A stretch of 64,000 nt of DNA from Profundicola chukchiensis. Lineage in GTDB: Bacteria > Bacteroidota > Bacteroidia > Flavobacteriales > Weeksellaceae. This document shows, in pieces, positions 3,810 through 63,785 of the stretch (positions are counted from its first letter, which is position 1; every line of letters begins with the position of its first letter). The notes beneath the pieces are model-generated. The model saw only the letters and a list, made by a program, of their open reading frames with translations, made no database searches and was not told the DNA's origin. The translations under genes and the position numbers were made by a program. The stretch covers positions 372,001 to 436,000 of the forward strand of contig NZ_JANAIE010000001.1 of NCBI RefSeq assembly GCF_029664245.1, in the 5' to 3' direction.

Positions 3810-6800
3810 TTAAAGGTTACATTTATTCTGACCACAAACCCAGTTAGTACCGTCGTAGAATTCCAAACATTGGTTAGTTAGATTCCAAATCATCATTCCT
3901 TCTTCAGCGTTTAACTGATTTCTTTGAGCTGTAGTTAAACGTGTTGGAACAAAACCTAAAGTTTTAGATTCTAATTTAATGAACCCGCTTTGTGCGTCTT
4001 CTACCCAACTTCCGTCTTCACCTCTATCTAAAGAACTGATTCCAACGTAAGTATTAGATTCAACATTACCTGTAGTTGGATCTTGAGTACAACGACAAGC
4101 TGTTGTATTAAACCCATAGGCAATACCATTAATATCTGTTAAACCTCCATGAACTTCTTGAATAATAGTAACCGAATTATCTGCATTTGAATTCCAAGGT
4201 ATCGTATTAAATGAATTAACTTGGTTTACATCTTGCTTAAATCGTAATGGATATAAATCATCATTTGAGTTTTTGATTCCGAACATTGAAACTACTCCGT
4301 CAGGACTTATTTTTACTCTAATTAAAGGGCTTTCGTCATTTCCTAGCATATTATATAATTGCAGAGTGGCAGATTCATATTGATCTCCATCCGCAAACTC
4401 AATATTAATATTGGTTGCCGTTCCAGCTTCAAACTCAATGTTTTGTTCAGCTAATAATACTCCATTTATTTGCATATTAAAGGCGTTATCTAATTTGTAA
4501 ATGTCAAAGACAAAACCTGCATTTGTACCCGGTTGAGTTGTTTCAAAAGTTACAGGACTAGCTTGATTAGGTCCATAAGACCATTCATAAGATTCACCCT
4601 CTACACGGCTAGAGCAATACACTACATTTTCTGCTGAATCGGATACACTACCAATTACATTCGAAGCAGTAGCTGTTGCATTATTTACAAGAGTATCAAA
4701 AGCTGCATCGTTCACAATACCCTTAAAGTAAAGAGTAAAAAATTGTCCGGGAGCTATACTTACGTTATCACTTTCTTTCACCATTCTCTCCGGGTCATGC
4801 GTTGACTCTCCAGCGTATTGATAATTAATAGTAAGCGATCCACTTATATCATCATGTTCACGAGGATACACATTAGTATTAACTGCATCATAAAAAGTAA
4901 ACTTAAAGTTTCCTACAGGATTTCCTGCAGCTGGAACATTTTGTCTACCTATATTCGTATTCCAAGCACCTGTGCTATTCGAACCAAATTCATTATTATC
5001 ACCATCAGCACCTCTATCAATTTCACTAATTACGCCTAAAGGAGAGGTTACAGATAAACTTAAATCCTGTTGATTTGCAAAAGCATTAGTATTAGAAAAA
5101 CTAAAACCATTTACGAAATAAGAAATGCTTGTTAAGGTAGCACCAAATGGCAACTCTGATTCAGTAAATAAAATATTTCTTGTTGAGTTTTGTCCACCGT
5201 TAAGTGATACATATTCAAAGGTTTTTGTAATTGACCCTGTTGTTACGGGGTTAGATGCATCTACTATTTGTGCCGAATTAGGAACATAAGTAAGCCCAAC
5301 AGGTACAAGGTCTTCTACCACAATATTATTAGCTGTTTGATTTCCAAAATTGCTAACTACAATAGAATAGTAAATCACATCCCCTTCTTGAACATTTCCT
5401 AAAGGTGCAGAGGTTTTATCAATTGCCAAGATTGGTCCGTCTACCACCACTGTCGCCACTGCAGGGTCACAAGGGCTTTGATTTTCATTATTTTCACAAA
5501 TCTCATAGTTAATCGTATAAATACCTGGAGGAGTCGCCTCTTCTAAAAATAATTCTCCAGTGAGATCATCAATATATAAAGGACTTGTCGGATTTGATAT
5601 AATCACCACATCATCCGTAGTTGCTTCTATTTCACCAAATAAATCATTCAATAATACATTCCCAACTGGTGAACCTTCTACGCCCTGTTGTGTGGTTACT
5701 GTATAATAATCATCATTCGCCATTGGGCCTGATAGCACCTCTGGAGTAACTTCACTTGTATTATTTAAAAGATTAGGATCGGCTTCATTAGAGAAAATAC
5801 TCGCCGTATTGGTGTAGTTTCCTGTTTCTTTCACTCGCAGAACTACCTCTAAAGTTGCGGTATCTCCCGAAGCAAATGGTCCTATAGTCCATATTCCTGT
5901 TGTTGGATCATAAGTTCCTACGGATGGATTCGCACTAACAAATTCATAACCCGTCGGAATTTGATTAGATACTAAAGTATTGGTTGCATTATCTGGTCCA
6001 AAGTTTTCAGCTGTTAAAGTAAAAGTTATCTCGTCATTAACATTAGGACTTGCATTATTTACTGCATTGATAATACTTAAATCTGAATTAAAGCAATCAC
6101 TCCCAATAGATTCTTGTCTGGTCGTTGCTCCGAAGTAGTAATAAACGTTATTATCTCTGTGGATTAATTGCTTAACTATATCATTAACAGGTGAAGTAGG
6201 AATTGTTAATTTATAAAGCGAATTATATCCAATAGAATAAAGTTCACCATTCAACCCTGCTAAACCATATGAAGTACTTTGTAAGTTACCTAAAACCCTA
6301 TGGCTAACATAATTATAATCTGTATCTACTTCAATTTCTACTAATTGAAAGGTATTATTGATAGCAAACCAGGACATATAGATTTTACCATTTAAATAAA
6401 CGAAATCCCCTCCTGGTTTACCACTAGAAAATGCATTTGCACCCGTTCCAAAATCCTTCCAAACCGTTTGCGTATATCCTTGATTGTTTGCACCTATAGT
6501 AAATCTCATTACCTCTCTCGCTGCTGCAAATGTATTAGAGCCAAAGCCTCTAAGCCCCGAGCCATCAGGAAGAAAACTTAATGAATTTCCCTCTAAACCA
6601 TTTCCTGCTGAAGAACCAGCAAATGCTACCGCAGTACCTGTTAGCTGATTAATTTCGTGTAATTCTGAAGGTTCATCTAAATCATAAGTAACACCGTATA
6701 ATTTACCATCTATATTGAAACCAATATCTCCGAATGATCTATTCGTATGGGATAATACTGTTTTAACTCCCGTATCTGCATTTATATACCCAAGCGGATA

Positions 6801-30758: not shown

Positions 30759-31844
30759 ATGAGTGATTACATTGTTTCTGCGAGAAAATATAGACCACAA
30801 ACTTTTGATCAAGTTGTTGGCCAAGAGGCTATTGTTACTACTTTAGAACATGCCCTTGCAAGCAATAAGTTGGCTCAAGCCCTACTTTTTTGCGGTCCGC
30901 GTGGTGTTGGTAAGACGACTTGTGCTAGAATTTTAGCACGAACCATCAACGAAACCGACAATCCCAACGATGACAATGATTTTGCATTCAATATATTCGA
31001 GTTAGATGCTGCATCTAACAACTCGGTAGATGATATTAGAAACCTAATCGATCAAGTTCGTTTCCCTCCACAAGTTGGAAATTATAAAGTATTCGTTATC
31101 GATGAGGTGCACATGTTATCAACCAGTGCTTTTAATGCTTTCCTTAAAACATTAGAAGAACCACCTGCGCATGCTATCTTTATATTAGCTACTACAGAAA
31201 AGCATAAGATTCTACCTACGATTCTTTCACGTTGTCAGATATATGATTTTAAAAGTATCGGTATTCCTGATATTAAAAATCATTTAGAGAAAATCGCGAA
31301 GAAAGAAGGGGTTACTTATGAGGATGATGCCCTACATTTAATTGCTCAAAAAGCAGATGGTGCTTTACGTGATGCTTTATCTATTTTTGATAGGCTCGTT
31401 ACTTTTGGTGAAGGAAGTTTAACCCTAGAAGGAGTTGCCGATACCTTAAATGTATTGGATTATGATACCTACTTCGCTATTACCGATGCTTGTCTAGAAA
31501 ATAAAATCCCTGAAGCTTTACACATTTTCGATAAGATTCTAAGAAAAGGTTATGATGCTCAGCTGTTTATATCTGGTTTAGGAGGTCATTTTAGAGATTT
31601 ATTGGTTTCTCAACATCCGCAAACAATTGAATTGCTAGACGTTGGAGAGAAAACCAAAGTTAAATACATTGAACAAGGTAAAAAGTGTACGCCTCAATTC
31701 TTGATGGATGCATTAGATATTTGCAATCAAGCTGACATCAATTATAGAGCTAGTAAGAATCAACGCTTAACAGTAGAAATTGCTTTAATGCAAATAGGAT
31801 CGCTTACCCAACAAGGTCAGCCTAAAAAAAAAAGTATAGCATAA
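30759..31844 (+). CDS. dnaX: DNA polymerase III gamma subunit (short dnaX product)
   Basis: The zero-frame product is 361 aa. It contains the AAA+ clamp-loader core: Walker A GPRGVGKTT (46-54), DEVH Walker B (115-118) and the SRC arginine finger (157-159). The Cys4 zinc module of E. coli DnaX is missing; the corresponding part (NETDNPNDDNDFAFNIFELDAAS) has no Cys. The frame ends right after the A-rich slippery tract with PKKKSIA-stop, the expected shape of a gamma product. Confidence 0.9.
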   Translation: MSDYIVSARKYRPQTFDQVVGQEAIVTTLEHALASNKLAQALLFCGPRGVGKTTCARILARTINETDNPNDDNDFAFNIFELDAASNNSVDDIRNLIDQVRFPPQVGNYKVFVIDEVHMLSTSAFNAFLKTLEEPPAHAIFILATTEKHKILPTILSRCQIYDFKSIGIPDIKNHLEKIAKKEGVTYEDDALHLIAQKADGALRDALSIFDRLVTFGEGSLTLEGVADTLNVLDYDTYFAITDACLENKIPEALHIFDKILRKGYDAQLFISGLGGHFRDLLVSQHPQTIELLDVGEKTKVKYIEQGKKCTPQFLMDALDICNQADINYRASKNQRLTVEIALMQIGSLTQQGQPKKKSIA

Positions 31845-39937: not shown

Positions 39938-42235
39938 ATGAAAGTATGTATCGCCGAAAAACCAAGTGTTGCACGTGAGATAGCATCTGTATTGGGAGCA
40001 AATTCCAAGCACGATGGCTACTACGAGGGCAATGGCTATGCCGTTACCTACACTTTTGGGCATTTATGTACACTCAAAGAACCACATGATTATAAACCGC
40101 ATTGGAAAAGTTGGGACCTCAACAATCTTCCGATGCTTCCCGAGAAATTTGAAACCAAAGTGGTTCAGAATTCTGGGATACAAAAACAGTTTAGAATCGT
40201 CAAGAGTTTATTCGAAAAAGCCAGCGTGGTCATCAATTGTGGGGATGCTGGACAAGAAGGAGAATTGATTCAACGTTGGGTGTTGAACGAAGCCAACTAT
40301 AAAGGAAAAGTCCAACGATTGTGGATTTCATCCTTGACGACAGAGGCCATAGAAGAAGGTTTTCAGAATCTAAAACCGGCAGAGGATTACGACAATCTAT
40401 ATTATGCTGGATTTTCTAGAGCTATCGGAGATTGGCTTTTGGGCATGAATGCTACCAGACTCTACACCGTTAAACACGGCGGATACAAACAAGTGCTATC
40501 TGTGGGGCGCGTGCAAACGCCTACGCTTGCCATGGTGGTCAATCGTTTTAAGGAAATCGAGAACTTTAAACCTCAACCTTATTGGGAATTGCAAACCCTT
40601 TATCGAGAAACCAACTTTAGTTATGAGGAAGGTCGCTTCCACAACAAAGAGGACGGTGAAGCCCTTGCGAATAAAGTAAAGGAAAGTGAGTTTGAAATCA
40701 TCTCTATCGAGAAAAAGAAAGGAAAGGAATATGCGCCTAAACTCTTTGACTTAACGGGTTTACAGGTTTATTGTAACAATAAATTCAGTTTATCGGCAGA
40801 TGATACGTTAAAGATTGTTCAGAAACTATACGAACAAAAATTGGTGACTTACCCTAGAGTAGACACCACTTTCTTGCCGAATGATTTATACCCTAAAGTA
40901 CCTGGGATTTTAAAGAATCTCACCAAGTACGCTGAGTTTACGCAGCCACTTTTGGGTAAAAAGATTAAAAAATCAAGTCGTGTATTTAACGACAAAAAAG
41001 TAACCGATCACCATGCAATTATTCCTACGGGAGTTCAAGGGAATTTATCGCACAGCCATCAGCAGGTGTATGACATTATTACCCGAAGATTTATCGCTGT
41101 TTTCTACGATGAATGTAAAGTAGCCAACACAACCGTATTAGGAAGTGCGGCCGAAGTTGTGTTTAAAACTACTGGAAAAGAAATTCTAGAAGAAGGATGG
41201 CGCGTGGTGTTGAAGAATCCAAATGCTAAAGAAAAAGAACCAGACATTCTTCCGACTTTTGTGAAAGGTGAAAAAGGTCCGCACGAACCTTCGTTTATAG
41301 AAAAAGAAACCAAACCGCCTAAGCATTTTACCGAGGCTACCCTCCTACGTGCGATGGAAACCGCAGGTAAGCAAGTAGACGATGAGGAATTGCGTGATTT
41401 GATGAAAGAAAACGGAATCGGAAGACCTTCTACCCGAGCAAATATCATCGAAACGCTATTCAAGAGAAAGTACCTAAAACGAAATAAGAAACAAGTACTT
41501 CCTACGCCAACCGGAATTCAGTTGATTGATACCATTCAAAATGAGTTATTGAAATCGGCAGAGCTTACGGGTACTTGGGAAAAGCAGTTAAAAGACATAG
41601 AAAAAGGAGAGTTTAGCGCTGCAGCCTTCATCAGAAACATGAAACAAATGGTTGATGCCTTGGTTTATGAGGTGAGAAGTGAGAAAAAACGCGCTAATAT
41701 TTCGCATGTCGTACAAACCAAAAAGAAGGAAGCTAAAGCTGCCAGCAAGAAAAAAGCTGGTATAGCCGCACAAGTTTGTCCGAAATGTAAGAAAGGAAAC
41801 CTGCTCAAAGGGAATGCTGCCTATGGTTGTAGTAACTACAATTCGGGCTGTGATTTTGTCTTACCTTTTAAGTTTTTGGGCAAGACCATTTCTGAAAAGC
41901 AATTGATTCGCTTACTAGAGAAAGGTAGCACCATCAATCTGAAAGGTTTTAAAACCGAAGAGGGCAGCGTGACAGGATTGGTGCGCTTTGACGATGACTT
42001 TAATTTAAAACTAGAACCAAAGAAAACAGCACCTAAAGCTCCAGCCAAAGATGAAGACCCGCTTTGTCCGAAATGTAAGAAAGGGAAAATCATAAAAGGC
42101 AAAACAGCCTATGGATGCTCTGCCTATAAAACAGGATGTGATTTTAAAGTTAGTTTTGAAACCGTAAAAGCCAAAATCGCCGGACAAAAGCCAACCAAAG
42201 AATTGGTTTATAAGATTTTGATGGAGGAAATCTAA
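39938..42235 (+). CDS. topB: DNA topoisomerase III (type IA)
   Basis: A 765-aa type IA topoisomerase. The Toprim domain has VCIAEKPSVAREIA (3-16) and GDAGQEGELIQRW (102-114). SVGRVQTPTL is at 188-197, and the active-site Tyr305 is in LVTYPRVDTTFLP. After residue 620 come two C4 zinc ribbons (CPKCKKG...YGCSNY..GC and the same again before the end), separated by a Toprim_Crpt-like domain. It relaxes negative supercoils and decatenates DNA. Plasmid or mobile TopB copies are often of this form, and it borders the defence island. Confidence 0.92.
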   Translation: MKVCIAEKPSVAREIASVLGANSKHDGYYEGNGYAVTYTFGHLCTLKEPHDYKPHWKSWDLNNLPMLPEKFETKVVQNSGIQKQFRIVKSLFEKASVVINCGDAGQEGELIQRWVLNEANYKGKVQRLWISSLTTEAIEEGFQNLKPAEDYDNLYYAGFSRAIGDWLLGMNATRLYTVKHGGYKQVLSVGRVQTPTLAMVVNRFKEIENFKPQPYWELQTLYRETNFSYEEGRFHNKEDGEALANKVKESEFEIISIEKKKGKEYAPKLFDLTGLQVYCNNKFSLSADDTLKIVQKLYEQKLVTYPRVDTTFLPNDLYPKVPGILKNLTKYAEFTQPLLGKKIKKSSRVFNDKKVTDHHAIIPTGVQGNLSHSHQQVYDIITRRFIAVFYDECKVANTTVLGSAAEVVFKTTGKEILEEGWRVVLKNPNAKEKEPDILPTFVKGEKGPHEPSFIEKETKPPKHFTEATLLRAMETAGKQVDDEELRDLMKENGIGRPSTRANIIETLFKRKYLKRNKKQVLPTPTGIQLIDTIQNELLKSAELTGTWEKQLKDIEKGEFSAAAFIRNMKQMVDALVYEVRSEKKRANISHVVQTKKKEAKAASKKKAGIAAQVCPKCKKGNLLKGNAAYGCSNYNSGCDFVLPFKFLGKTISEKQLIRLLEKGSTINLKGFKTEEGSVTGLVRFDDDFNLKLEPKKTAPKAPAKDEDPLCPKCKKGKIIKGKTAYGCSAYKTGCDFKVSFETVKAKIAGQKPTKELVYKILMEEI

Positions 42236-42261
42236 GCTTTTACTACATCATTCATTTAATT

Positions 42262-42444
42262 TTATAATCCGCTAACATTTGCCATACGCTTCATCGTAAC
42301 AAAGAATGCTTGATAAAATGCACCATCTTTAGCATACAATCTATATAGATTTAATTCTTGTTTTCGCTGCTGCGTCATAACATCATCTAGAATCTTTTTA
42401 AAGGTTAAATCTTTGTTTTGGGCATCTTTGTTTTCAGCAACTTT
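42262..42444 (-). pseudogene. Remnant of a type I restriction HsdR-like C-terminus
   Basis: An open stretch of about 60 codons with no start reads ENKDAQNKDLTFKKILDDVM, then RKQELNLYRLYAKDGAFYQAF, and ends in a stop. The FKKIxDDVM and ELxLYRxYAxDxAFxxxF pattern resembles the C-terminal helices of HsdR-type restriction subunits. A TAG precedes the stretch and no upstream part remains. It lies 15 bp downstream of the DUF262-DUF1524 gene. I read it as the tail of a gene lost when the present island was inserted. The family assignment is moderate. Confidence 0.4.
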
Positions 42445-42459
42445 CTATCGGAAATAAAG

Positions 42460-44364
42460 CTATGCTCCTTTTAATTTGTTTTTCATTAAATCAGAATGTT
42501 TCCTGATTTCTATTTCACTCCATTCTGGTTCAGACATCATTATCTGTTGCTTTAAACTATCTGCACCCACTTTATGGTAATAATCTTTTTTGGCTGATGG
42601 CATATGGTTACTCAAGCGAGAGTTTTTACTGCTACTTATCAGACACAAATTTCCGAACATATCATAAATGGAAGCATCTATTTTATGATCCTTGGAAATT
42701 GGATTTTGTGGATAATAGTGTTCTACAGAACTTCTAAAGGTGAATTCAAAATCAGATGATCCTTTCACACCTTCTTTCCAAAGAATATAATCCAAATAGT
42801 TAAATACAAAATTCTCAACCGATGTCCCCTGGTCTAATACATCCATATTGTAAGCGCCAGAACTCTTATTCACTGACAGACTCTGATTCTTATATATAAT
42901 TTCAAAGTAGTCTATTGGATCTAAGGCGATATATCTATCAAACAAATAGGCTTCTGCTAATTTGAGCAAATAAGCTTTATATTCTTCTCCATTGATTACG
43001 GGTTGGTTAAACAAGTAATTTAAAGCTGCATTAAGCCAATGTTTATAAACCAATGTGGGCGTTGATACGTGGAACATTGACAATAACATAATCAACTCTT
43101 TGTTTAATGCCTCATCATTTTCTACGTTATTTACGTAACTCACCTTATTACCAGCATACCATTTTAGAACTTTTAAACTCCACTGGTCTTTTTCTCTGAT
43201 AAATTCTCGTTTTATAATGTACTGATCAAATAGGTGTTTAATCTTCAATAAATTAAAGCCAAAATCCTTTACAAATTGTATCTGTGTTTCCTTTTCTGTA
43301 TCTTTTAAAAATGTTTTAAAGGAATCAATCAGTCTTTTATCATCTAAAGGAATATCAGACTTAGTTTGAATACGAAGTACGTGCAATAAAAAATTCGAGA
43401 AATTAATAACAGAAGTAAAACGTTCTGGAGCATCTTCCTTTTCGTCTGTATTTACTTTAAACGAACCCTTGTAGTCAATGATTTCATTAATATTCAATTG
43501 GGCGGAATGCTTATCCTCTTTGGCTGCTTCAAATATTCTAGTAGCAATATCATCCAAGGAATTACAGTTCAAAACATTCCAGTTGTTATCCTTAAAAACA
43601 ATATCTCGCTCTTTTGTAGAAAAACCATATTGCACGTAGCGCTCCATATCGGCACAAGCTTCCCAAATAGTGTTGAATGCATACGTCAATGCTGGATTGT
43701 CGGATAAAACCTCCAACATATTTGCTTTTAGAATTTCGTGCTTTTCCAGTTGTTCTCCGCGGTTGTTCATTATTTCAAAATAATGATTCAAATCGGTTTC
43801 TTCAGGCACAGAAACTCTAACTACTTTTACTTTTTGGGTTAAGTAATTGTAGAAAATATTCACTTTATCTGGCGTATCTAAAAAGCGGGCTAAGACTTTT
43901 TCCGCATCATAATAGCGTTGCTTTATTTGAGGATTGTAATCTTTACTCGAAATAAAGGCCACCTCTTTTTGATTTTGATTGGTGATGACCTCCAAAGTTT
44001 CTGTTGACTTTTTCCGGCTATCAAAACTTAAATCTAAATGATAAGAAATTTTATCTTCTATTTCCTGATCAAACTTTCTATGTAGTGCATTCAGAAGTAT
44101 TTTTAAAGTGGTTAAGCGTTGTTGCCCATCGATGGTTTCATAAGTTGTCTGACCGTCTATATGGCGCTCATAAACCACCAATGTGCCAATGTAGTAATTG
44201 GTTTTACACTTTTCTTCGTCAAAAGCATAGTCATATACATCCTGAATCAATTGAGTAATTTCTCCCAAGCCCCAGGTATAATTTCTTTGGTAGATGGGAA
44301 TGACGTAGGAATCAGAATTCTCAAATAAAGATCCTATAGAAAATGAAGGGATTGTATTACTCAT
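42460..44364 (-). CDS. DUF262-DUF1524 protein (GmrSD-type, HNH nuclease fused)
   Basis: A 634-aa protein. The N-terminal DUF262 domain has IPIYQRNYTWGL (about 18-29) and the ParB-like ETIDGQQRLTTLK motif (about 77-89), linked to nucleotide hydrolysis. The C-terminal DUF1524 domain has SVEHYYPQN (about 556) and MFGNLCLISSSKNSRLSN (about 577-594), the His and Asn residues of an HNH-type nuclease. This is the GmrSD/BrxU/SspE architecture that attacks modified or phage DNA. The start overlaps the preceding gene by 8 bp, so the two are translationally coupled. Confidence 0.85.
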   Translation of the reverse strand: MSNTIPSFSIGSLFENSDSYVIPIYQRNYTWGLGEITQLIQDVYDYAFDEEKCKTNYYIGTLVVYERHIDGQTTYETIDGQQRLTTLKILLNALHRKFDQEIEDKISYHLDLSFDSRKKSTETLEVITNQNQKEVAFISSKDYNPQIKQRYYDAEKVLARFLDTPDKVNIFYNYLTQKVKVVRVSVPEETDLNHYFEIMNNRGEQLEKHEILKANMLEVLSDNPALTYAFNTIWEACADMERYVQYGFSTKERDIVFKDNNWNVLNCNSLDDIATRIFEAAKEDKHSAQLNINEIIDYKGSFKVNTDEKEDAPERFTSVINFSNFLLHVLRIQTKSDIPLDDKRLIDSFKTFLKDTEKETQIQFVKDFGFNLLKIKHLFDQYIIKREFIREKDQWSLKVLKWYAGNKVSYVNNVENDEALNKELIMLLSMFHVSTPTLVYKHWLNAALNYLFNQPVINGEEYKAYLLKLAEAYLFDRYIALDPIDYFEIIYKNQSLSVNKSSGAYNMDVLDQGTSVENFVFNYLDYILWKEGVKGSSDFEFTFRSSVEHYYPQNPISKDHKIDASIYDMFGNLCLISSSKNSRLSNHMPSAKKDYYHKVGADSLKQQIMMSEPEWSEIEIRKHSDLMKNKLKGA

Positions 44365-54265: not shown

Positions 54266-55669
54266 ATGAAGCTTAAGTTTATTTCAAGTCTACTTCTACT
54301 CTATTTTTTAAATCTTAGCCTGAATGCTCAGCACAATATTCATGGTTCTTTTCCTGGTTTAGCAGGACAACAAGTTAAATTAGTAAGCTTTAAAAACCTA
54401 GGAATTAAAAGCATAGACAGCATTAAAGTAGATGCTAAAGGAGATTTTAAACTTCAATTTCCAAAAGATCAAGTAGGAATGGCTTATTTGACAGCAGAAG
54501 ACAACAAGCCATTTATAATTGTATTAGACGGTGAAGATATTGTTTTGAATGGTCAGATTTTAAGTTATACGCAAGACGTAAACATTCTTGAGGGCAAACA
54601 AAACAAAATTTTCTCTCAATATGCTACAGAACATCCTAGAAGGGAACAGACCTATAGTGCTTGGGATTTCTTAGATAAAATCTATAGCCAAGATTCACTT
54701 TTTATGGTTCAACAAGAAGCCAAACTTGCTATTGAAAAGGAAAAAACACGAATTCAACAGGAGGATAATGCTTTCTTAAATAGCCTAGAAAAAGATACTT
54801 ACTTAAGTTATTATTTACCTTTAAGGAAATTGGTTAGTCAGGTTAGAACCATTGCTCAATACAGGTTTACAGAAATTCCTACGAGTATAGAAAGTTTCAG
54901 AAACCTAGATTATACCGATGAGCGTCTTTATACCAGTGGCATTTTAAAAGAAAGTATAGAAAATCATTTTTGGTTGATTGAAAACAGTGGCAAGGAATTG
55001 AATCAAGTCTATGAGGAAATGAAAATTTCTGTAGATGCCATGTTTAAACCTTTAGCAAAAGATACGGATAAATTGAATTTAGTGGCGACTCATCTTCTAA
55101 AACTGTTAGAAGAGCGCAGTATGTTTGAGGTAGCCGAACATTTATCTTTAAAGTTATTAAATGATAAGAAATACAATATCCACTCAGATTTAAAGCTAGA
55201 ATTAGAACGCTACCGAAGTGTTAAATTAGGCCAGAAAGCTCCTAATTTTAAATTGAAAGGAGATGTCTTTGCCCCTGACTATACTAAGAAGAGCAAGCCT
55301 AAGTCCTTAAACGATATCAAGGCTAAAAACACACTTATAATTTTCGGATCTAGCTGGTGTCCTGCTTGTCCGCCGGATTTAATGAAGATAGCTAAGCAAT
55401 ATCCACAATGGAAAGAATTAGGCTTGGAAGTCGTTTTTATTTCTTTAGATGAAGACAAGGAAATATTTAAGAACTTCGTAAAACCCTTTCCATTTATCAG
55501 CTTTAGTGATTATAAAAAATGGGAAAGTCCAATCGTTAAGGATTATTATGTAAATGCTACGCCAAGTTTCTTTTTATTAGACGATAAAAAAGAGATTATA
55601 ATTCGTCCCAATAGTTTAAATCATTTAGAAGCATGGATAGATTGGTATTTAATTCAAGGAAAAAAATAA
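54266..55669 (+). CDS. Secreted TlpA-like thioredoxin-fold protein
   Basis: A 467-aa protein. The signal peptide ends SLNA|QHN. An N-terminal DUF4369-like domain (about 25-115: LVSFKNLGIKSIDSIKVDAKG) precedes a helical middle part and a C-terminal thioredoxin domain with LGQKAPNFKLKG, SSWCPACPPDL (CxxC active site) and the cis-Pro in NATPSFFLLDD. Such proteins reduce disulfides in the periplasm. It is monocistronic; the ilv leader region follows. Confidence 0.88.
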   Translation: MKLKFISSLLLLYFLNLSLNAQHNIHGSFPGLAGQQVKLVSFKNLGIKSIDSIKVDAKGDFKLQFPKDQVGMAYLTAEDNKPFIIVLDGEDIVLNGQILSYTQDVNILEGKQNKIFSQYATEHPRREQTYSAWDFLDKIYSQDSLFMVQQEAKLAIEKEKTRIQQEDNAFLNSLEKDTYLSYYLPLRKLVSQVRTIAQYRFTEIPTSIESFRNLDYTDERLYTSGILKESIENHFWLIENSGKELNQVYEEMKISVDAMFKPLAKDTDKLNLVATHLLKLLEERSMFEVAEHLSLKLLNDKKYNIHSDLKLELERYRSVKLGQKAPNFKLKGDVFAPDYTKKSKPKSLNDIKAKNTLIIFGSSWCPACPPDLMKIAKQYPQWKELGLEVVFISLDEDKEIFKNFVKPFPFISFSDYKKWESPIVKDYYVNATPSFFLLDDKKEIIIRPNSLNHLEAWIDWYLIQGKK

Positions 55670-55766
55670 TTCTCACACCCAACATAACTCATTGAATTAA
55701 AATCAATTACATTACAATCTGAAGTAAAGAATTAATAGCCAGCCAAAATTTAATTCTCCAAAACTC

Positions 55767-55796
55767 TTTGAACTTTGAAATATTTACTTAGTTTTG
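55767..55796 (+). promoter_or_regulatory. Promoter of the ilv leader region
   Basis: TTTG (55767-55770) and TAGTTTTG (55789-55796), 18 bp apart, fit the Bacteroidota consensus. The start site would fall only a few bases before the ATG at 55805, so the leader message may be nearly leaderless. Confidence 0.6.
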
Positions 55797-55804
55797 CCAT
55801 CGAA

Positions 55805-55879
55805 ATGAGAAATTTATCTATTATTCCTGCTATTATTATTGCAATTGTGATTATCACACCTGCAACAGGGATGCTATAG
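55805..55879 (+). CDS. Isoleucine-rich leader peptide 1 (24 aa)
   Basis: ATG to TAG encodes 24 residues starting MRNLSIIPAIIIA and ending VIITPATGML: eight Ile, one Val, two Leu and two Thr. A 24-base gap then leads to an intrinsic terminator. Such peptides control amino-acid operons by ribosome stalling at codons of the scarce amino acid. It differs in sequence from leaders 2 and 3. It lies at the head of the region that includes ilvE-ilvA. Confidence 0.7.
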   Translation: MRNLSIIPAIIIAIVIITPATGML

Positions 55880-55902
55880 AAAAAATATAAAATTATATCT
55901 AA

Positions 55903-55933
55903 AAGCCTCCCGAGAAATCAGGAGGCTTTTTTT
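55903..55933 (+). terminator. Attenuator terminator 1
   Basis: AAGCCTCC (55903-55910) and GGAGGCTT (55921-55928) with a T run. A competing structure is not obvious; only a 4-5 bp GGGA/TCCC pairing was seen. Confidence 0.75.
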
Positions 55934-55948
55934 ATTAGTTAAAACAAA

Positions 55949-56005
55949 ATGACAACACATACAAACATTATTATTATCAGCATTATTATTCGCTCCCTAG
56001 AGTGA
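55949..56005 (+). CDS. Isoleucine-rich leader peptide 2 (18 aa)
   Basis: It encodes MTTHTNIIIISIIIRSLE: seven Ile (six before the first Arg in two runs) plus three Thr. The stop codon lies inside GAGTGAG (56000-56006), which can pair with CTCACTC (56037-56043) in the downstream terminator. A ribosome stalled at the Ile codons would leave GAGTGAG free (antitermination); one that finishes would cover it (termination). Sequence and layout are nearly the same as leader 3. Confidence 0.75.
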   Translation: MTTHTNIIIISIIIRSLE

Positions 56006-56028
56006 GGATTGCTGGTATCTATAATACT

Positions 56029-56063
56029 AAGCCTTTCTCACTCACCTGAGGAAGGCTTTTTTT
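56029..56063 (+). terminator. Attenuator terminator 2
   Basis: A 12-position stem, AAGCCTTTCTCA/TGAGGAAGGCTT with one T:G, loop CTCACC, then a T run. Confidence 0.85.
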
Positions 56064-56115
56064 GTTTAAAAACTTAAGAAAACATTGAATTAAATTTTAA
56101 TTATAAAACGTAAAC

Positions 56116-57717
56116 ATGAAAAAAAGACTTTTAATCAGCTTATTCTCCTGCCTTCCCTTACTCGGAACGGCACAAGTATTCCAAGAAAACTTTGATGGCG
56201 ATGGACCTGGAATCGATGCTTGGACTGTATTGGACTTAGATGGAAATACCGTTGCTCCTCCTGTGAGTGAAATTACAGACGCTTGGGTGGCTATCGACCG
56301 TGGAGGGCCTGCTCCAAATTATGGTGGTCCAGATGGAGATTTTGCCGCAGCGAGCACATCATTTTATATTCCGGATGGTATCGCTAATGATTGGCTTATC
56401 TCTCCAGAGTTCACAGTAACTGGTGAGTCACCTTATTTAGTATGGGATGCCAAAGGTACCGATCCTAGATTTTTAGATGGTTATAAAGTAATGCTTGCGC
56501 CATCAGCTGGTGATTCTCCAGAGGATTTTAGCGTAGAATTATTTAGTACTGAAGCTGAAAATTTTGACTGGACAACAAGACATGTAGATCTTTCTGCATA
56601 TCTAGATCAAACTGTAAGAATAGCTTTTGTAAACAATAGTGAAAACAAATTTGTTCTACTTATAGATAATATTTTAGTCGACGAATATACTCCTGCCCCA
56701 GTGCCTGACTGTACTTCACTTAACCTTCCAGTGGATGGTGCGACTGAGGTTGAGTTTACAGAAGGTGTGTTATTTAGCTGGGAACCAGTTGGCGATACTG
56801 AAGGAATCGAATATGACTTTTATTTGGACATGCATCCTAACCCTACCACTTTAATCGGTACAACCAGCGAAACATCGGTAACGGTATCTGGAATCACACA
56901 TGGAGGAACAACGCATTATTGGAAAGTTGTCCCAAAGAACACAAGTGGAGAAGCTAGCGATTGTAATGAATTTTATTTTACCACCATTGAAATGAATGTT
57001 GCACCATATTGTGGTCCTTTAAACTTCTCATTCAATGTCGAGCCGATAAGCTATGTAAGTTTTGGTGGCATGACAAATGAATCAGATGCTGCTTTGAACA
57101 ACTCTCCAGCACACGAAGTATTCTTAGATCAAGTTGCCAATGTATCTCCTGGCACTACTGAGACAATTGTTATCAAAGGAAATACAAATGGTCCTTGGGA
57201 GAATTCTTTAATGGTGTTTATCGACTGGAATCAAGATGGAGATTTTGATGACGAAAATGAAACCTATACGATACCTACACCTTTAGCCGGATCTGATGGA
57301 TTAGACGATGTTCAAGTATCCTATGATATAGAGGTTCCTTCTGATGCATTGCTAGGAAACACCCGTATGAGAGTTAAAAAGAACTTTGGCCCACAGAATT
57401 TAGAAAATCCTTGCGTAGGTGGAAGTTTCGGACAAGCAGAAGATTATACTGTAAACGTAGGAAGCCTATCTGTTCATGATGTTGATTTATTGGAATTTAG
57501 CTACTATCCAAACCCAGTTAAAAATGTTTTAACCTTTAAAACAAATCAATCTCTTAATGAGGTAAGTGTTTATGATGCTATGGGTAAATTCTTAATGAAC
57601 AAGAAGTTTACTAACTCAGAATATCAATTAAATTTATCTCACCTACCTACAGGCGTTTACACCCTTGTAGCTAGTTTAGAAGACAAAACAAAAACCTTTA
57701 AAGTTGTAAAAAAATAA
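56116..57717 (+). CDS. Secreted choice-of-anchor/GEVED protein with T9SS tail
   Basis: A 533-aa protein with a signal peptide ending LLGTA|QVF. A lectin-like/MAM-type domain (about 25-195, FQENFDGDG to FVLLIDNILVDE) precedes a fibronectin III-like domain (about 205-290) and a GEVED domain (about 300-455, with VFIDWNQDGDFDDENETY and AEDYTVNV). A type A T9SS domain ends the chain (FSYYPNPVKNVLTFKT to TFKVVKK). It belongs to the extracellular T9SS cargo group. It sits between attenuators 2 and 3, so its message would be controlled like the ilv operon; whether it is part of the same transcript is open. Confidence 0.88.
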   Translation: MKKRLLISLFSCLPLLGTAQVFQENFDGDGPGIDAWTVLDLDGNTVAPPVSEITDAWVAIDRGGPAPNYGGPDGDFAAASTSFYIPDGIANDWLISPEFTVTGESPYLVWDAKGTDPRFLDGYKVMLAPSAGDSPEDFSVELFSTEAENFDWTTRHVDLSAYLDQTVRIAFVNNSENKFVLLIDNILVDEYTPAPVPDCTSLNLPVDGATEVEFTEGVLFSWEPVGDTEGIEYDFYLDMHPNPTTLIGTTSETSVTVSGITHGGTTHYWKVVPKNTSGEASDCNEFYFTTIEMNVAPYCGPLNFSFNVEPISYVSFGGMTNESDAALNNSPAHEVFLDQVANVSPGTTETIVIKGNTNGPWENSLMVFIDWNQDGDFDDENETYTIPTPLAGSDGLDDVQVSYDIEVPSDALLGNTRMRVKKNFGPQNLENPCVGGSFGQAEDYTVNVGSLSVHDVDLLEFSYYPNPVKNVLTFKTNQSLNEVSVYDAMGKFLMNKKFTNSEYQLNLSHLPTGVYTLVASLEDKTKTFKVVKK

Positions 57718-57744
57718 TTTAAAAACTTAGAACAAACACACATC

Positions 57745-57801
57745 ATGACAACTTTCACTAACATTATTATCAGCATTATTATTATTCGCTCCCCCGAGTG
57801 A
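57745..57801 (+). CDS. Isoleucine-rich leader peptide 3 (18 aa)
   Basis: It encodes MTTFTNIIISIIIIRSPE, with seven Ile, and differs from leader 2 at only a few positions. The stop codon is inside GAGTGAG (57796-57802), which can pair with CTCATTC (57833-57839) with one G:U in place of a G:C. It is the leader directly in front of ilvE. The ATG is preceded by AACACACATC without a Shine-Dalgarno sequence, usual for the phylum. Confidence 0.78.
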   Translation: MTTFTNIIISIIIIRSPE

Positions 57802-57824
57802 GGAATGCTGCTATACCTATATCT

Positions 57825-57861
57825 AAGCCTTTCTCATTCATTTGAGAAAGGCTTTTTTTTT
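57825..57861 (+). terminator. Attenuator terminator 3
   Basis: A perfect 12-bp stem, AAGCCTTTCTCA/TGAGAAAGGCTT, loop TTCATT, then a run of nine T. It lies 32 bp before ilvE. Confidence 0.9.
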
Positions 57862-57893
57862 AACCAAAATTCAAAATTTAATAATCACATACC

Positions 57894-58781
57894 ATGTACT
57901 ACAACGACAACACATTAATCTATCTCGACGGAGAATTTGTTAAAGCCAATGAAGCTTCCACAGATTTATACAGTCAAACGCTTCACTACGGATACGGCGT
58001 TTTTGAAGGAATTCGCGCCTATGCTACAGAGGACGGAACTCAAGTTTTTAAATCTCATGAGCATTACGAACGCTTGAAAAAATCAGCAGAGCTTATTCAA
58101 ATTCCATTCGAGTATGATGTGCAAGCATTAGTGGATGCTACGGATGAATTGCTGCGTAGAAATAAGCTAACGGATGCCTATGTTCGTCCTTTGGTGTTCT
58201 GTGATCCCAACATGACACTAGCGCGACCAAACAATGTTTCTATCATGATCTGCGCTTGGGAATGGGGCGCTTATTTGGGCGACAAACAATTGCGTTTAAC
58301 GGTTTCCTCTTATTGCCGACCACACCCCCGTTCTATCAAAATCGAAGCTAAAGTTTGCGGACATTATGTGAATTCAATTCTTGCTACAAATGAAGCCAAA
58401 GATAAAGGCTATGACGAAGCCTTGCTTTTGGATAGCGATGGCTTCTTGGCAGAAGGTCCGGGCGCTAATTTATTCTTCGAAAAAGATGGTGTTTTATTCA
58501 CGCCGCAATTGGGAAATATCCTTCCCGGAATTACGCGCGCAACTGTGTTAGAATTAGCCGAAGAACTTGGGTTGGAGGTTCAGCAAGGCTTATTTAAGCC
58601 GAATGAATTATTTGAAGCAGATAGTGCTTTCTACTGTGGAACAGCCGCTGAAGTCATTGGAATTGCTTCGGTTGATGAAACTGTATTTCCAAAAGCTTGG
58701 AAAGATTCATTAGGAAGAAAATTACAAGATGCTTACTCAAAAAGAGTGAGAGAAACTTCAAACGTATTGAGCAAAAATTAA
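57894..58781 (+). CDS. ilvE: Branched-chain amino acid aminotransferase
   Basis: A 295-aa fold-IV PLP enzyme. It starts with [16 protein letters not shown] and has [14 protein letters not shown] (30-43), the PLP-linked Lys153 in [10 protein letters not shown], and the [12 protein letters not shown] and GTAAEVIGI loops. It transaminates the keto acids of Ile, Val and Leu. It is the first gene of the ilv operon and is 2 bp from ilvD. Confidence 0.95.
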
Positions 58782-58783
58782 TC

Positions 58784-60460
58784 ATGAAAACTTTAAATAA
58801 ATACAGTAAAACAATCACGCAAAACGAATCTCAACCTGCTGCACAAGCTATGCTTTACGGTATAGGCTTGACGGAAGAAGACATGCAAAAAGCACAAGTC
58901 GGGATTGTGAGTACAGGTTACGAAGGAAATACCTGCAATATGCACTTGAACGACTTGGCGAAAGAAGTCAAAACAGGAGTCCAAAATGAAAATCTTGTTG
59001 GATTAATTTTCAACACAATTGGCGTAAGTGATGGGATTTCCAACGGAACAGATGGAATGCGATTTTCATTGGTTTCCCGTGATGTTATTGCTGATTCAAT
59101 CGAAACGGTGGTTAGCGCACAATGGTACGACGCAGTTTTAGCCGTAGTGGGTTGTGATAAAAACATGCCTGGTTCTATCATCGCCATGGGCAGATTAAAT
59201 CGTCCTGCTATCATGATTTACGGTGGAAGCATTCATTCAGGAAAATGGAAAGGTGAATCTTTGAATATCGTTTCGGCATTTGAAGCCTTGGGCAAGAAGT
59301 TCAACAACACGATAAGTCCGGAGGATTTCAAAGACGTCATCAAAAATGCCTGTCCTGGTGCAGGTGCTTGTGGCGGAATGTACACTGCCAACACGATGGC
59401 TTCTGCCATTGAAGCTCTGGGAATGAGTTTGCCTTACAGTTCTTCAAATCCTGCTTTGAGCGCTGAGAAAAATCAAGAATGTTTAGCTGCTGGAAAGGCG
59501 ATACGCGTATTACTTGAAAAAGATATCAAACCCAAAGACATCATGACCAAAAAGGCATTTGAAAATGCAATTACCATGGTTACTGTTTTGGGTGGTTCTA
59601 CCAATGCGGTCTTGCACTTAATCGCGATGGCGCATGCTGTAGACATCGAGTTAACATTAGAAGATTTCCAGAAAATCAGCGATAAAGTTCCTGTTTTAGC
59701 CGATTTAAAACCAAGCGGTAAATACTTGATGGAGGATTTACATGCTGTTGGTGGAGTTCCTGCAGTGATGAAATACTTACTCGCCAACAACTTGCTTCAC
59801 GGTGATTGTTTAACCGTAACAGGAAAAACAGTTGCCGATAATTTAGCTGAAGTTCCAGCTTTAACGGCAGGTCAGGAAGTGTTTTTCTCCTTGGATTCTC
59901 CTGTTAAAGAAACGGGGCATTTACAAATCCTTTTTGGGAATTTGTCACCCAATGGAAGTGTGGCGAAAATCAGTGGAAACGAAGGTGAATATTTTGAAGG
60001 TTCTGCAAAAGTTTACAACGATGAATACGCAGCAATTGATGGAATAAAAAGCGGCGAAGTGAAATCAGGAGATGTGGTGGTGATTCGCTACTGTGGACCG
60101 AAAGGAGGTCCTGGAATGCCAGAAATGCTCAAGCCAACTTCTGCTATCATGGGCGCTGGTCTTGGGAAAAGTGTTGCGCTTATTACCGATGGAAGATTCT
60201 CAGGTGGAACGCATGGATTTGTGGTGGGGCACATCACTCCTGAGGCTTATGACGGAGGAACAATTGCTCTTGTTGAAAATGGTGATACGATTAAAATTGA
60301 CGCGAAGCACAATACCATAGATTTAAAAGTGAGTGACGTGGAATTAGCAAAGCGAAAGTTGAATTGGAAGCGACCGGAGCTTAAAGCGAAAAAGGGAGTG
60401 CTGTATAAATATGCAAAGTGTGTTTCGTGCGCATCTACAGGTTGTGTAACAGATAAATAA
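58784..60460 (+). CDS. ilvD: Dihydroxy-acid dehydratase
   Basis: A 558-aa enzyme counted from the ATG at 58784 ([13 protein letters not shown]). A longer frame starting at 58697 would overlap ilvE and is not needed. It has [11 protein letters not shown] and [16 protein letters not shown] (Fe-S cluster Cys) and the GRFSGGTHG and [11 protein letters not shown] motifs. It dehydrates dihydroxyacids to the keto acids used by IlvE. It is 2 bp from ilvE and overlaps ilvB by one base. Confidence 0.95.
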
Positions 60461-62163
60461 TGAAAGAAATGACAACAACAAAAACAACAGGCGCTCAAGC
60501 GGTAATGAAATCATTGGTCGCAGAACAAGTCGATACGATATTTGGATATCCCGGAGGAGCAATTATGCCAATTTATGATGCTTTATACGACTATGAAGAT
60601 GCGGTAAAACACATTTTAGTTCGTCATGAACAAGGCGCAACACATGCTGCTCAGGGTTATGCGCGAACATCAGGGAAAACGGGAGTAGTTTTCGCCACTT
60701 CTGGACCGGGAGCAACGAATTTAATTACAGGTTTGGCGGATGCCATGATCGATTCAACACCTTTGGTTTGCATCACAGGACAGGTGGATTCAAAACTGTT
60801 GGGAACGGATGCTTTCCAAGAAACAGATGTGGTGGGAATTTCTATGCCGATTACAAAATGGAATACCCAAGTAACCAAAGCAGAAGATATTCCAGCGGCG
60901 ATTGCAAAGGCGTTTTATATTGCGAAATCTGGTCGTCCAGGACCTGTTTTAATCGACATTACCAAGGATGCTCAGTTTGGTGAAATGGAATTTCAGTACG
61001 AAAAATGTACGACCATCCGCAGTTATCGTCCGAAACCAAAATTGAATTCTGCATTAGTTGAAGAAGCTGCCAATTTAATCAATGGAGCGAAAAAACCGTA
61101 TTTATTGATCGGTCAAGGCATCATGCTTTCGAATGCAGAACAAGAACTTTTAAAATTCGTTGAAAAATCTGGAATTCCAGTGGCTTCTACTCTTTTAGGA
61201 TTGGGTGCTTTCCCAAATCATCATCCTTTATATGCTGGTTATTTAGGAATGCACGGAGATTATGCTGCGAATATCAAAACCAACGAATGTGATGTGCTGA
61301 TTGCCATCGGAATGCGCTTCGATGATAGGGTAACGGGTGATGTTTCTCGTTATGCCAAACAAGCAAAAGTGATTCATATAGATATAGATGCTGCAGAGCT
61401 GAATAAAATTGTTCAAACAGAAGTTGGAATTCATGCAGATGCCAAAGAAGTATTGACTGTTTTAACAGAATTGGTTCACCCAAAAGAACATACGGCTTGG
61501 TTACAGGAATTCAGAGATCTTAAGAAAGTTGAGGTTGAAACTTTGCAAAAAAGTACAGACGAATCACTCAGCGATGAAATAAAAATGGAAGAAGTGATTA
61601 AGGTGCTTTCTGAAATCACCAAGGGAGAAGCGGTTGTTGTTACCGATGTTGGTCAGCACCAAATGTTGACTGCGCGTTATTACGAATACAATAAAACGAA
61701 GAGCAACATTACTTCTGGAGGATTAGGAACGATGGGATTCGCACTTCCTGCGGCGATTGGAGCGAAGTTCGGTGCGCCTAAAAAACCCGTAATTGCTATT
61801 ATCGGAGATGGCGGATTTCAAATGACTTTACAGGAATTGGGCACGATTTTACAAAGTGAAGTGGATGTGAAAATCGTCATTCTGAACAATCGATTCCTTG
61901 GAATGGTGAGACAATGGCAGCAACTATTTTTTGAAAAACGCTATTCTTTCACCCATATGGTCAGCCCAAATTTCACTGCGTTGGCTCAGGCCTACTCTAT
62001 CAGCGCTAAAAAAGTGGAAGCTCGTGAGGATTTGAAAGAGAATTTATTAAAAATGTTGAATCACAATGGTCCTTATTTACTGGAAGTCATGGTGGCAAAG
62101 GAGGAAAACGTTTTCCCTATGATTTGCACTGGCGCTTCGGTTTCAGAAGTACGATTAAACTAA
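60460..62163 (+). CDS. ilvB: Acetolactate synthase large subunit
   Basis: A 567-aa ThDP enzyme. IFGYPGGAIMPIYDAL and VRHEQGATHAAQGYAR (activating Glu) are in the N-terminal domain. GDGGFQMTLQELGT binds Mg-ThDP in the C-terminal domain. It makes acetolactate and acetohydroxybutyrate, the first shared step. The start overlaps the ilvD stop (TAATG); a second in-frame ATG is three codons downstream. Confidence 0.95.
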   Translation: MKEMTTTKTTGAQAVMKSLVAEQVDTIFGYPGGAIMPIYDALYDYEDAVKHILVRHEQGATHAAQGYARTSGKTGVVFATSGPGATNLITGLADAMIDSTPLVCITGQVDSKLLGTDAFQETDVVGISMPITKWNTQVTKAEDIPAAIAKAFYIAKSGRPGPVLIDITKDAQFGEMEFQYEKCTTIRSYRPKPKLNSALVEEAANLINGAKKPYLLIGQGIMLSNAEQELLKFVEKSGIPVASTLLGLGAFPNHHPLYAGYLGMHGDYAANIKTNECDVLIAIGMRFDDRVTGDVSRYAKQAKVIHIDIDAAELNKIVQTEVGIHADAKEVLTVLTELVHPKEHTAWLQEFRDLKKVEVETLQKSTDESLSDEIKMEEVIKVLSEITKGEAVVVTDVGQHQMLTARYYEYNKTKSNITSGGLGTMGFALPAAIGAKFGAPKKPVIAIIGDGGFQMTLQELGTILQSEVDVKIVILNNRFLGMVRQWQQLFFEKRYSFTHMVSPNFTALAQAYSISAKKVEAREDLKENLLKMLNHNGPYLLEVMVAKEENVFPMICTGASVSEVRLN

Positions 62164-62169
62164 TAAAAA

Positions 62170-62682
62170 ATGGAAAAAACATATACTGTTTCGGTTTTTA
62201 CAGAAAATAGCATTGGAATGATGAATCGTGTGACGATTGTTTTCACGCGTAGACATTTAAACATTGACAGTATTACGGCTTCTGAATCTGAAGTTCCTGG
62301 CGTATTTCGCTACACAATTGTTTTAAGAACAACTCGCCAACAGGTAGATAAGGTGGTAGGTCAGCTGGAAAAAGTAATCGATGTAATCAAGGCTTTTGTT
62401 CATGAAGAAAATGACATCGTTCATCAAGAAATTGCTTTGTATAAGATTAGGACAGAAACATTAACGAATGGCGATGTCGAAAAAGTGATTCGTGAACATC
62501 ATGCGCGAGTGTTAACAGTTGATCCTCAATTTATGGTCATCGAAAAAACAGGACATGTTGAAGAAACGCAATTGCTTTTCGAAAAGCTCAGACCGTATGG
62601 AGTGCTCGAATTCGCAAGATCTGGAAGGGTGGCAGTAACGAAACCGATGAAGGAGTTGAGTACGTACTTGGAGGAGATTTAA
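62170..62682 (+). CDS. ilvN: Acetolactate synthase small (regulatory) subunit
   Basis: A 170-aa protein with an N-terminal ACT domain (YTVSVFTENSIGMMNRVTIVF, then RRHLNIDSI) and a C-terminal regulatory region (VTKPMKELSTYLEEI). It binds Val/Ile for feedback inhibition of IlvB. It is 6 bp after ilvB. The 59-bp gap to ilvC contains three imperfect GAATTAACAAAAA repeats. Confidence 0.93.
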   Translation: MEKTYTVSVFTENSIGMMNRVTIVFTRRHLNIDSITASESEVPGVFRYTIVLRTTRQQVDKVVGQLEKVIDVIKAFVHEENDIVHQEIALYKIRTETLTNGDVEKVIREHHARVLTVDPQFMVIEKTGHVEETQLLFEKLRPYGVLEFARSGRVAVTKPMKELSTYLEEI

Positions 62683-62741
62683 TTACGAATTAACAAAAAA
62701 AAGAATTAACGAATTAACAAAAATAAATTAAACAATAAAAA

Positions 62742-63785
62742 ATGGCAACAATAAATTTTGGAGGCGTATTAGAAAACGTAGTAAAGCGCGATGAATTTCC
62801 GTTGGGAAAAGCGCAAGAAGTATTAAAAAATGAAACCGTAGCTGTAATCGGTTATGGAGTTCAAGGACCTGGACAGGCGCTCAATTTAAGAGACAATGGT
62901 GTGAATGTCATTGTGGGTCAACGCAAAGGAACTGGAAGTTGGAAAAAAGCTTTGGCAGATGGTTGGGAGGAAGGAAAAACACTTTTCGAAGTGGAGGAAG
63001 CTTGTGAAAAAGCAACTGTAGTGATGAATTTACTTTCTGATGCGGGTCAAATTCAAGCTTGGGAAGGAATGAAAAAACACTTAACCAAAGGGAAAACGCT
63101 TTATTTCTCTCATGGATTTGGAGTAACCTTCCACGAAAAAACAGGAATTGTTCCTCCTACGGATATCGATATTGTTTTAGTTGCACCGAAAGGCTCGGGA
63201 ACTTCGCTCAGAAGTTTATTCTTGAGTGGTCAAGGTTTGAACTCTAGTTATGCCGTTTTTCAAGACGCAACAGGAAAAGCAAAAGAACGCGCTTTGGCTT
63301 TGGGTATCGCCATTGGTTCGGGATATTTATTCGAAACAACGTTCCAAAAAGAAGTGTACAGTGATTTAACAGGAGAACGTGGTGTTTTAATGGGCGCTGT
63401 AGCAGGAATATTTGAAGCACAATTCAATGTTTTACGTCAACGTGGACATTCGCCAAGTGAAGCATTTAACGAAACTGTGGAAGAATTCACACAAAGTTTA
63501 ATGCCACTGATCGCGGAAAACGGAATGGATTGGATGTTTGCCAATTGTTCAACCACTGCACAACGTGGAGCATTGGATTGGAAAGGAAAATTCCGAGACG
63601 CAACAGAACCTGTTTTGAATGAACTATACGACAGTGTGGTTTCAGGAAAAGAAGCGGAAATCGTAATCGAAGCGAATAGTAAACCCGACTACCGAATGAA
63701 ATTAGAAGAAGAACTTAACGAAATGCACAACAGTGAATTATGGCAAACTGGATTGGAAGTACGAAAATTAAGACCCACGAAATAA
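62742..63785 (+). CDS. ilvC: Ketol-acid reductoisomerase
   Basis: A 347-aa class I type enzyme. The NAD(P)-binding loop VAVIGYGVQGPGQALNLRD is near residue 33 and SHGFGVTF marks the Rossmann end. The metal-ligand region is DLTGERGVLMG, then LFETTFQKEV and the C-terminal helical domain. It reduces acetolactate and acetohydroxybutyrate to the dihydroxyacids. It overlaps ilvA by one base (TAATG). Confidence 0.95.
   Translation: MATINFGGVLENVVKRDEFPLGKAQEVLKNETVAVIGYGVQGPGQALNLRDNGVNVIVGQRKGTGSWKKALADGWEEGKTLFEVEEACEKATVVMNLLSDAGQIQAWEGMKKHLTKGKTLYFSHGFGVTFHEKTGIVPPTDIDIVLVAPKGSGTSLRSLFLSGQGLNSSYAVFQDATGKAKERALALGIAIGSGYLFETTFQKEVYSDLTGERGVLMGAVAGIFEAQFNVLRQRGHSPSEAFNETVEEFTQSLMPLIAENGMDWMFANCSTTAQRGALDWKGKFRDATEPVLNELYDSVVSGKEAEIVIEANSKPDYRMKLEEELNEMHNSELWQTGLEVRKLRPTK

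Follow-up and report, generated by a model that had tools for sequence, protein, structure and literature searches.

Three serial isoleucine leader-peptide attenuators predicted ahead of the ilv operon of Profundicola chukchiensis

Typically, an amino-acid operon under attenuation has a single leader peptide, and ilvL, trpL, hisL and thrL of Escherichia coli are the classical ribosome-mediated attenuators of this kind. In contrast, in a stretch of 64,000 nucleotides (nt) from Profundicola chukchiensis (contig NZ_JANAIE010000001.1, positions 372,001 to 436,000; this whole stretch is called the window here, and features in it are given in its own coordinates), three small open reading frames (ORFs) rich in isoleucine (Ile) codons, each followed by an intrinsic terminator, stand ahead of ilvE-D-B-N-C-A. 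Is this one working attenuator with spare copies, or do three gates act one after another? We believe that a serial array of three ribosome-mediated Ile attenuators on one transcript, as predicted from sequence comparison and fold models, is very probably the best explanation.

Leader ORF 1 (55805-55879, + strand; MRNLSIIPAIIIAIVIITPATGML) has 24 codons, 8 of them Ile, and is followed by a terminator with a U-run at about 55901-55933. Leader ORFs 2 (55949-56005; MTTHTNIIIISIIIRSLE) and 3 (57745-57801; MTTFTNIIISIIIIRSPE), also on the + strand, are paralogues of 18 codons each, 7 of them Ile, and their terminators, again with U-runs, lie at about 56029-56063 and 57825-57861. We refer to each ORF with its terminator as a unit. 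The ilv genes follow on the same strand, with ilvE at 57894-58781 and ilvD, ilvB, ilvN and ilvC at 58784-63785 (ilvE, ilvD, ilvB and ilvN by NCBIfam, ilvC by Pfam), while ilvA, an NCBIfam match, lies just past the window end. A first-pass annotation, made from the sequence alone, had reported the three Ile-rich ORFs with their terminators ahead of this operon and had called two of the leaders near-identical; the ORF scan, the terminators and the family matches agree with the former, and the 83% DNA identity of units 2 and 3 agrees with the latter. It had also called the leaders successive, which is right for their order on the + strand ahead of ilvE but not in the sense of contiguous, as a gene for a 533-residue secreted protein (56116-57717, + strand), absent from that description, splits leaders 2 and 3. 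The ilv genes are thus behind three attenuators and the secreted-protein gene behind two.

When the 64 kb were scanned for ORFs with at least five Ile codons followed by a terminator, exactly these three units were found on the + strand, and the single hit on the - strand overlapped an ORF of 324 residues. Thirty dinucleotide shuffles of the window (one strand) gave nine units in total, about 0.3 each, and the one shuffled window that had three units had them spread across the 64 kb. Based on these controls, and on the shuffled stretches of the class-wide draw described below, we reject a chance origin of the units.

Arrays of this kind recur in relatives. In the best 80 of 567 candidate ilvE loci, a set that leans to close relatives, we found three contiguous units at 12 loci and two at 21; a further 35 have a single unit, and at the remaining 12 no unit was detected. 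Two genomes outside this set (G431 and G599) also have three contiguous units. One locus, that of Myroides sp. 1354 (L063), is counted with two units because its third, near-identical unit contains a run of 100 Ns (4804-4903); assemblies may collapse or break such arrays, so copy numbers are lower bounds. For a wider view, 46 genomes with this ilvE from a draw of 395 Bacteroidia genomes were scored for units within 900 nt, with one unit in 29, two in 8, three in 1 and none in 8; the window itself scores as one unit under this rule, its other units being more than 900 nt away. At least one unit is therefore present in 38 of 46, against 9 of 920 shuffled stretches, each with one unit and none with two, although by eye two of the 38 positives (L207, L239) and one extra unit each in L228 and L232 resemble the ends of coding genes. 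For this ilvE, the premise of a single leader per amino-acid operon has to be qualified, since at least two units occur in 9 of the 46 genomes (8 by eye). Searching with a model of unit 2 gave two hits in the window's genome and, at E<=0.001, hits in 105 of 296 genomes of its family, mostly weak single matches, and in 22 of 299 genomes of the Oceanihabitans family. Overall, one gate is common, two are fairly common and three occur patchily. In an ilvE tree of 42 rows (41 of the 80 loci and the window), 12 of the 13 triple rows, namely the window and 11 loci, are in one clade (support 97/93), which comprises Flavobacteriaceae, Brumimicrobium (Crocinitomicaceae), the window and one two-unit row (L060). 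Two contigs binned as Nitrotoga and Rhizobium (L068 and L074) have Ile leaders and an ilvE that groups with Flavobacterium/Flavobacteriaceae rows, and they are probably mis-binned.

If the units act in series, a promoter is expected before the first unit only. The flavobacterial -7 consensus given in a transcriptome study of Flavobacterium psychrophilum is TAnnTTTG (PMC9723704), and we predict a sigma-A-type promoter at 55767-55796 on the + strand, with TTTG at 55767-55770, a spacer of 18 nt and the -7 box TAGTTTTG at 55789-55796. This is the only exact TANNTTTG on the + strand from 55121 to 58000, with one-mismatch boxes at 56091, 57629, 57672 and 57699. Separate promoters for each window leader were rejected because there is no further exact box up to 58000, a search that excludes exact boxes only. 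Among the relatives, 75 of the 80 loci were examined for the box and for the complementarity described below, and 65 of these have a unit; two loci with foreign or short upstream regions (L050, L062) and three with the leader peptides of L054 (L055, L057, L058) were omitted. Of the 31 loci with at least two units, 25 have a -7 box within 75 nt ahead of the first unit. For later units, the stretch back to the terminator before them has a box in 1 of 44 cases. The box frequency in the window (31 in 64 kb) predicts about one chance occurrence for each of the two sets. First units are therefore enriched in the box and later ones are not. Because the box stands before first units and hardly before later ones, the units look serial on one transcript, not ALTERNATIVES. 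Leader 1 of the window starts 8 nt past its box (55797-55804 lie between), which gives a predicted 5' untranslated region of about 4 nt and an mRNA predicted to be nearly leaderless, while in the 24 other multi-unit loci with a box this distance is 17-22 nt in 20 and 7-9 nt in four.

We modelled the folds of eight units, the three in the window and five from two relatives (L043 and L054), with the ribosome represented by a simplified footprint, and found three competing hairpins in their RNA. In window units 2 and 3, TATCAGC or CAGCATT and CGCTC in the ORF pair with a segment that spans the stop codon and runs on past it (the 1:2 hairpin), the segment from GAGTGAG onward, which in unit 2 includes the stop codon, pairs alternatively with the terminator 5' arm CTCA(C/T)TC (the antiterminator), and that same arm pairs with its 3' arm (the terminator). 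In unit 1, GGGATGCT at the end of the ORF is able to pair with AGCCTCCC, so that the 5' arm of terminator 1 has an alternative partner as well. With the ribosome placed at the stop codon, the terminator 5' arm stays without a partner (0 to -0.3 kcal/mol) until its 3' arm has been transcribed, and the terminator then reaches -16.8 to -18.4 kcal/mol in the window units. With the ribosome on the Ile codons, the RNA up to the 3' arm folds into the antiterminator, at -10.4 to -20.7 kcal/mol in the window units. In these models, an antiterminator able to compete with the terminator is available in each unit, and a ribosome at the stop codon prevents it from forming.

The same competition can be followed across relatives by comparing the pairing of the leader-end segment with the terminator 5' arm to that of 100 shuffles of the segment. 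This was done for 109 of 110 units from the 65 loci and the window, the segment of unit 3 in L048 being too short. The complementarity reaches p<=0.05 in 89 of the 109, with a mean z of -3.2, although related units are not independent; for window units 1, 2 and 3, p is 0.03, 0.00 and 0.00 (3, 0 and 0 of 100 shuffles were as good). Brumimicrobium (L040) has a changed terminator arm with CCTGAC and, by eye, a GTCAGG near the leader end that is able to pair with it, and its three units give p of 0.01, 0.03 and 0.22, so the third fails. Aligning 30 type-2 units shows 91% pairing for the antiterminator, where slid versions of it reach 37-50%, and the 1:2 hairpin is 87.8% paired with a covariation score matched by 7 of 500 shuffles; its three pairs with double changes were matched by 113 of 500.

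The Ile codons are kept as well. For leaders of the type of 2 and 3, we counted 35 ORFs from 21 loci and the window (the alignments and this count drew on 20-22 chosen loci, window included), and of the 210 residues at their six core positions 206 are Ile, a figure inflated by the use of a scan that demanded Ile-rich runs; the four replacements are Ser, Asn, Leu and Met. Residues flanking the Ile core vary. A check of relatives for broken ORFs or non-Ile changes, either of which would count against the first-pass annotation, gave two exceptions beyond these four, described below.

From the ORFs, terminators, competing folds, conservation and promoter position, all of them present in the sequence or in silico, we infer the following for stalling, the termination response, the multiplication of gates and the co-regulation of the inserted gene. 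RNA polymerase would initiate at the promoter ahead of leader 1, and a ribosome would translate the Ile-rich leader at each unit, with charged tRNA-Ile as the one signal for all three. When Ile-tRNA is plentiful, a ribosome at the stop codon would cover the 5' half of the antiterminator and the terminator would form; when it is scarce, a ribosome stalled on the Ile run would let the antiterminator form first and the polymerase would go on. With three gates before ilvE, read-through probabilities would multiply, giving less leakage and a steeper response than one gate. The secreted-protein gene, behind gate 2 and before gate 3, would also be expressed on Ile shortage, at a looser setting than ilv. 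Attenuation in series, as proposed in the first-pass annotation, draws support from the competing folds, the leader-to-arm complementarity, the kept Ile codons, a promoter box at the first unit only and the arrays of relatives, and the stepwise or stricter Ile control proposed along with it may follow.

Several observations weigh against a serial array. Even when a stalled ribosome is included, complete units folded at equilibrium favour the terminator, the one exception being window unit 2 when stalling is placed at the last Ile, and the switch must therefore depend on folding during transcription. Classical attenuation likewise requires the RNA to fold step by step as it is transcribed. With no ribosome, and as long as the 3' arm has yet to be made, window units 2 and 3 form the antiterminator over the 1:2 hairpin, which leaves that hairpin, present in complete-unit folds, a putative protector. 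By the complementarity test, 20 of the 109 units fall short of p<=0.05, and the antiterminator in the alignment of type-2 units shows no double-sided changes and does no better than column shuffles. The stretches scanned for a box ahead of later units are short, mostly 25-40 nt, with 1 of 44 about the chance level, and a promoter inside a preceding unit is excluded only for exact boxes and in the window. Unit 3 of L048 has lost its stop codon, and unit 2 of L254, which the scan overlooked, has only three Ile codons. The triple type is also rare, with a strong unit-2 doublet in 3 of 299 Oceanihabitans-family genomes under strict filters. Finally, Pontibacter (L086 and L116) has two Ile-leader units of which the first, in both loci, is without an antiterminator by the complementarity test and may work differently.

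A variant of the serial array is that the gates are not equivalent, and that unit 1 responds at a different degree of Ile shortage from units 2 and 3, giving stepwise control. Unit 1 differs from the others in length, in codon layout (its first Ile is at codon 6, its Ile clusters are separated and it has one Val) and in leader-to-arm complementarity, which is -11.4 kcal/mol against -18.6 and -17.0 kcal/mol for units 2 and 3, and in the window genome different genes stand behind two and three gates. Against this, Ile codons dominate all three leaders, and Thr and Val codons are not consistently conserved in units 2 and 3. We regard the variant as possible but would not favour it.

It is less likely still that only one gate is effective, the others being tandem duplicates that chance or repeated slippage has preserved and that contribute little to control. 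This would suit the range of copy number from 1 to 3 among relatives, the lost stop codon and the shortened Ile run noted above, and the slightly greater likeness of units 2 and 3 within a locus (mean identity 0.883, 12 loci) than of unit 2 between loci (0.861), as expected from slippage or gene conversion. However, the stop codon is kept in 35 of 36 leaders of the 12 triple loci in the clade, the terminator is kept in every unit and most of these units reach p<=0.05 for complementarity. Moreover, unit 1 is unlike unit 2 (mean identity 0.605) yet conserved between loci (0.801), and two unlike gates have therefore long been retained together. We consider an array with one effective gate unlikely. 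That the small ORFs encode functional hydrophobic peptides, for instance type I toxin-like ones, with terminators that merely end small RNAs, would fit short hydrophobic peptides each followed by a terminator, but leaders 2 and 3 have a hydrophobic stretch of just 8 residues and leader 1 one of 12, flanking residues vary, placement before ilvE recurs in relatives and the conserved letters are largely those that RNA pairing needs (TATCAGC/GCTGGTA, GAGTGAG/CTCATTC), and on this last ground we rejected it as very improbable, peptide function not having been assayed.

Taking the serial array as the preferred reading, its history can be traced in part. Paenimyroides (L056) is triple amid two-unit relatives, and the ilvE tree requires three changes, for which one gain and two losses would also serve, so that independent triplication is no more than probable. 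The ilvE of the window is 96% identical to that of Oceanihabitans sediminis, while a clamp-loader gene (30759-31844) is 65% identical to its counterpart in the Oceanihabitans sediminis genome and 79-84% identical to those of two congeners. In these two congeners we found only distant aminotransferases, no close ilvE and no match to the unit-2 model; the other ilv genes were not searched there. Because of this difference in identity and the lack of a close ilvE in the congeners, the operon was probably transferred together with its attenuators, in one direction or the other. A topoisomerase III-like gene was dropped as an identity yardstick in favour of the clamp-loader gene since it behaves as an accessory gene. 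At 39938-44364 in the window, it lies beside a GmrSD-type restriction gene and is 77-80% identical to genes in Oceanihabitans, Bizionia and one congener and at most 59% in the other genomes searched; the region is a possible island. Carriage of the operon on a plasmid was rejected, as 72,556 plasmid records held no close ilvE and the 38 matching records were all below 60% identity, with 42% the best listed. Just after ilvA in the window's genome there are broken remains (L255, 7240-7720) whose sequence resembles a tyrosine recombinase end, as would fit an ilv region of mobile origin.

The gene between gates 2 and 3 encodes a protein with choice-of-anchor J and GEVED domains and a type A sorting tail of the type IX secretion system (T9SS). 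In the Oceanihabitans locus, a gene-free gap of 72 nt separates units 2 and 3, and for that reason the insertion most simply came after the triplication. The 50-nt gap before the gene has no exact promoter box but has a one-mismatch box at 56091. The closest homologues found, with 61-62% full-length identity, belong to two genomes of one genus (G092 and G106), where they immediately follow ilvA; G029, a third genome from this genus, lacks such a gene in that position. A GEVED/choice-of-anchor-J T9SS gene is ilv-linked in three genomes (window 56116-57717; L254 9224-10822; L261 8731-10329, reverse strand), in two positions, between attenuators or after ilvA, and the three proteins form a clade among the seven compared (100/100). 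In G106 there is a TATATTTG box ahead of the T9SS gene, so co-transcription with ilv is uncertain there. Our guess is that the secreted protein has a role in scavenging or at the cell surface.

Like the leaders of E. coli, Listeria and Staphylococcus, each unit combines an ORF rich in codons for the end product, an intrinsic terminator and a competing antiterminator. Those leaders occur one per operon and, in E. coli, mix branched-chain codons, whereas here there are three serial gates with almost only Ile codons, in a member of the Bacteroidota. Leader-peptide attenuation of ilv is described for Listeria and Staphylococcus (PMC5864092, PMC5794164). The mgtCBR leader of Salmonella likewise has several short ORFs, two in its case, each part of an attenuator, but its gates sense ATP and proline and its abstract calls it a 'singular example' (PMC3641672); here all three leaders are Ile-rich and two are paralogous, and by sequence this is not a tandem for two different signals. 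The arrangement also resembles tandem T-boxes, in which switches for the same ligand are repeated, each with its own expression platform, with an expected digital or pseudo-cooperative response, and the ilv operon is treated in the section on tandemly regulated processes (PMC12452182, PMC7583486). T-boxes bind tRNA directly, whereas here the sensing element would be a translated ORF, and no T-box was among 26 relaxed-threshold matches in 55700-57900. Known Rfam leader families were rejected too, since Phe_leader (RF01859) scored 35.8 bits and Thr_leader (RF00506) 25.6 bits against a gathering threshold of 55; the sole Rfam match at the gathering threshold in the window is a tRNA.

Within the Bacteroidota, the transcriptome study of F. 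psychrophilum mentions 'strong clues' for leader-peptide attenuation ahead of amino-acid operons (PMC9723704), and that species, of a related lineage, has three units before its own ilvE (L047). The words 'ilv' and 'isoleucine' are absent from the main text of that paper, and an ilv leader may be in its supplement. Short ORFs reminiscent of leader peptides are reported from long 5' untranslated regions of B. thetaiotaomicron (PMC7366714). Supplements aside, we found no report of serial leader-peptide attenuators for the same amino acid in the open-licence literature. With units in 38 of 46 genomes, leader-peptide attenuation would seem to be the norm for this ilvE among Bacteroidia, and it is only briefly described in the papers found.

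It is close to an even chance, in our view, that the copy number of same-signal attenuators is an evolvable control setting, with a transferable ilv cassette carrying one, two, three or more serial Ile gates, probably amplified more than once, and with cargo inserted between gates to give the genes of one transcript graded set-points for a single amino-acid signal. The effect of connecting switches in series has been raised as a question for tandem riboswitches (PMC12452182), and we did not find it raised for leader-peptide attenuators in the open-licence literature. Arrays of two or three same-signal gates, if indeed recurrent and transferable, would offer a natural experiment on how leakage, range and steepness change when gates are joined in series, and relatives with one, two and three gates, together with the window and the gene between its gates, would make a ready comparison series.

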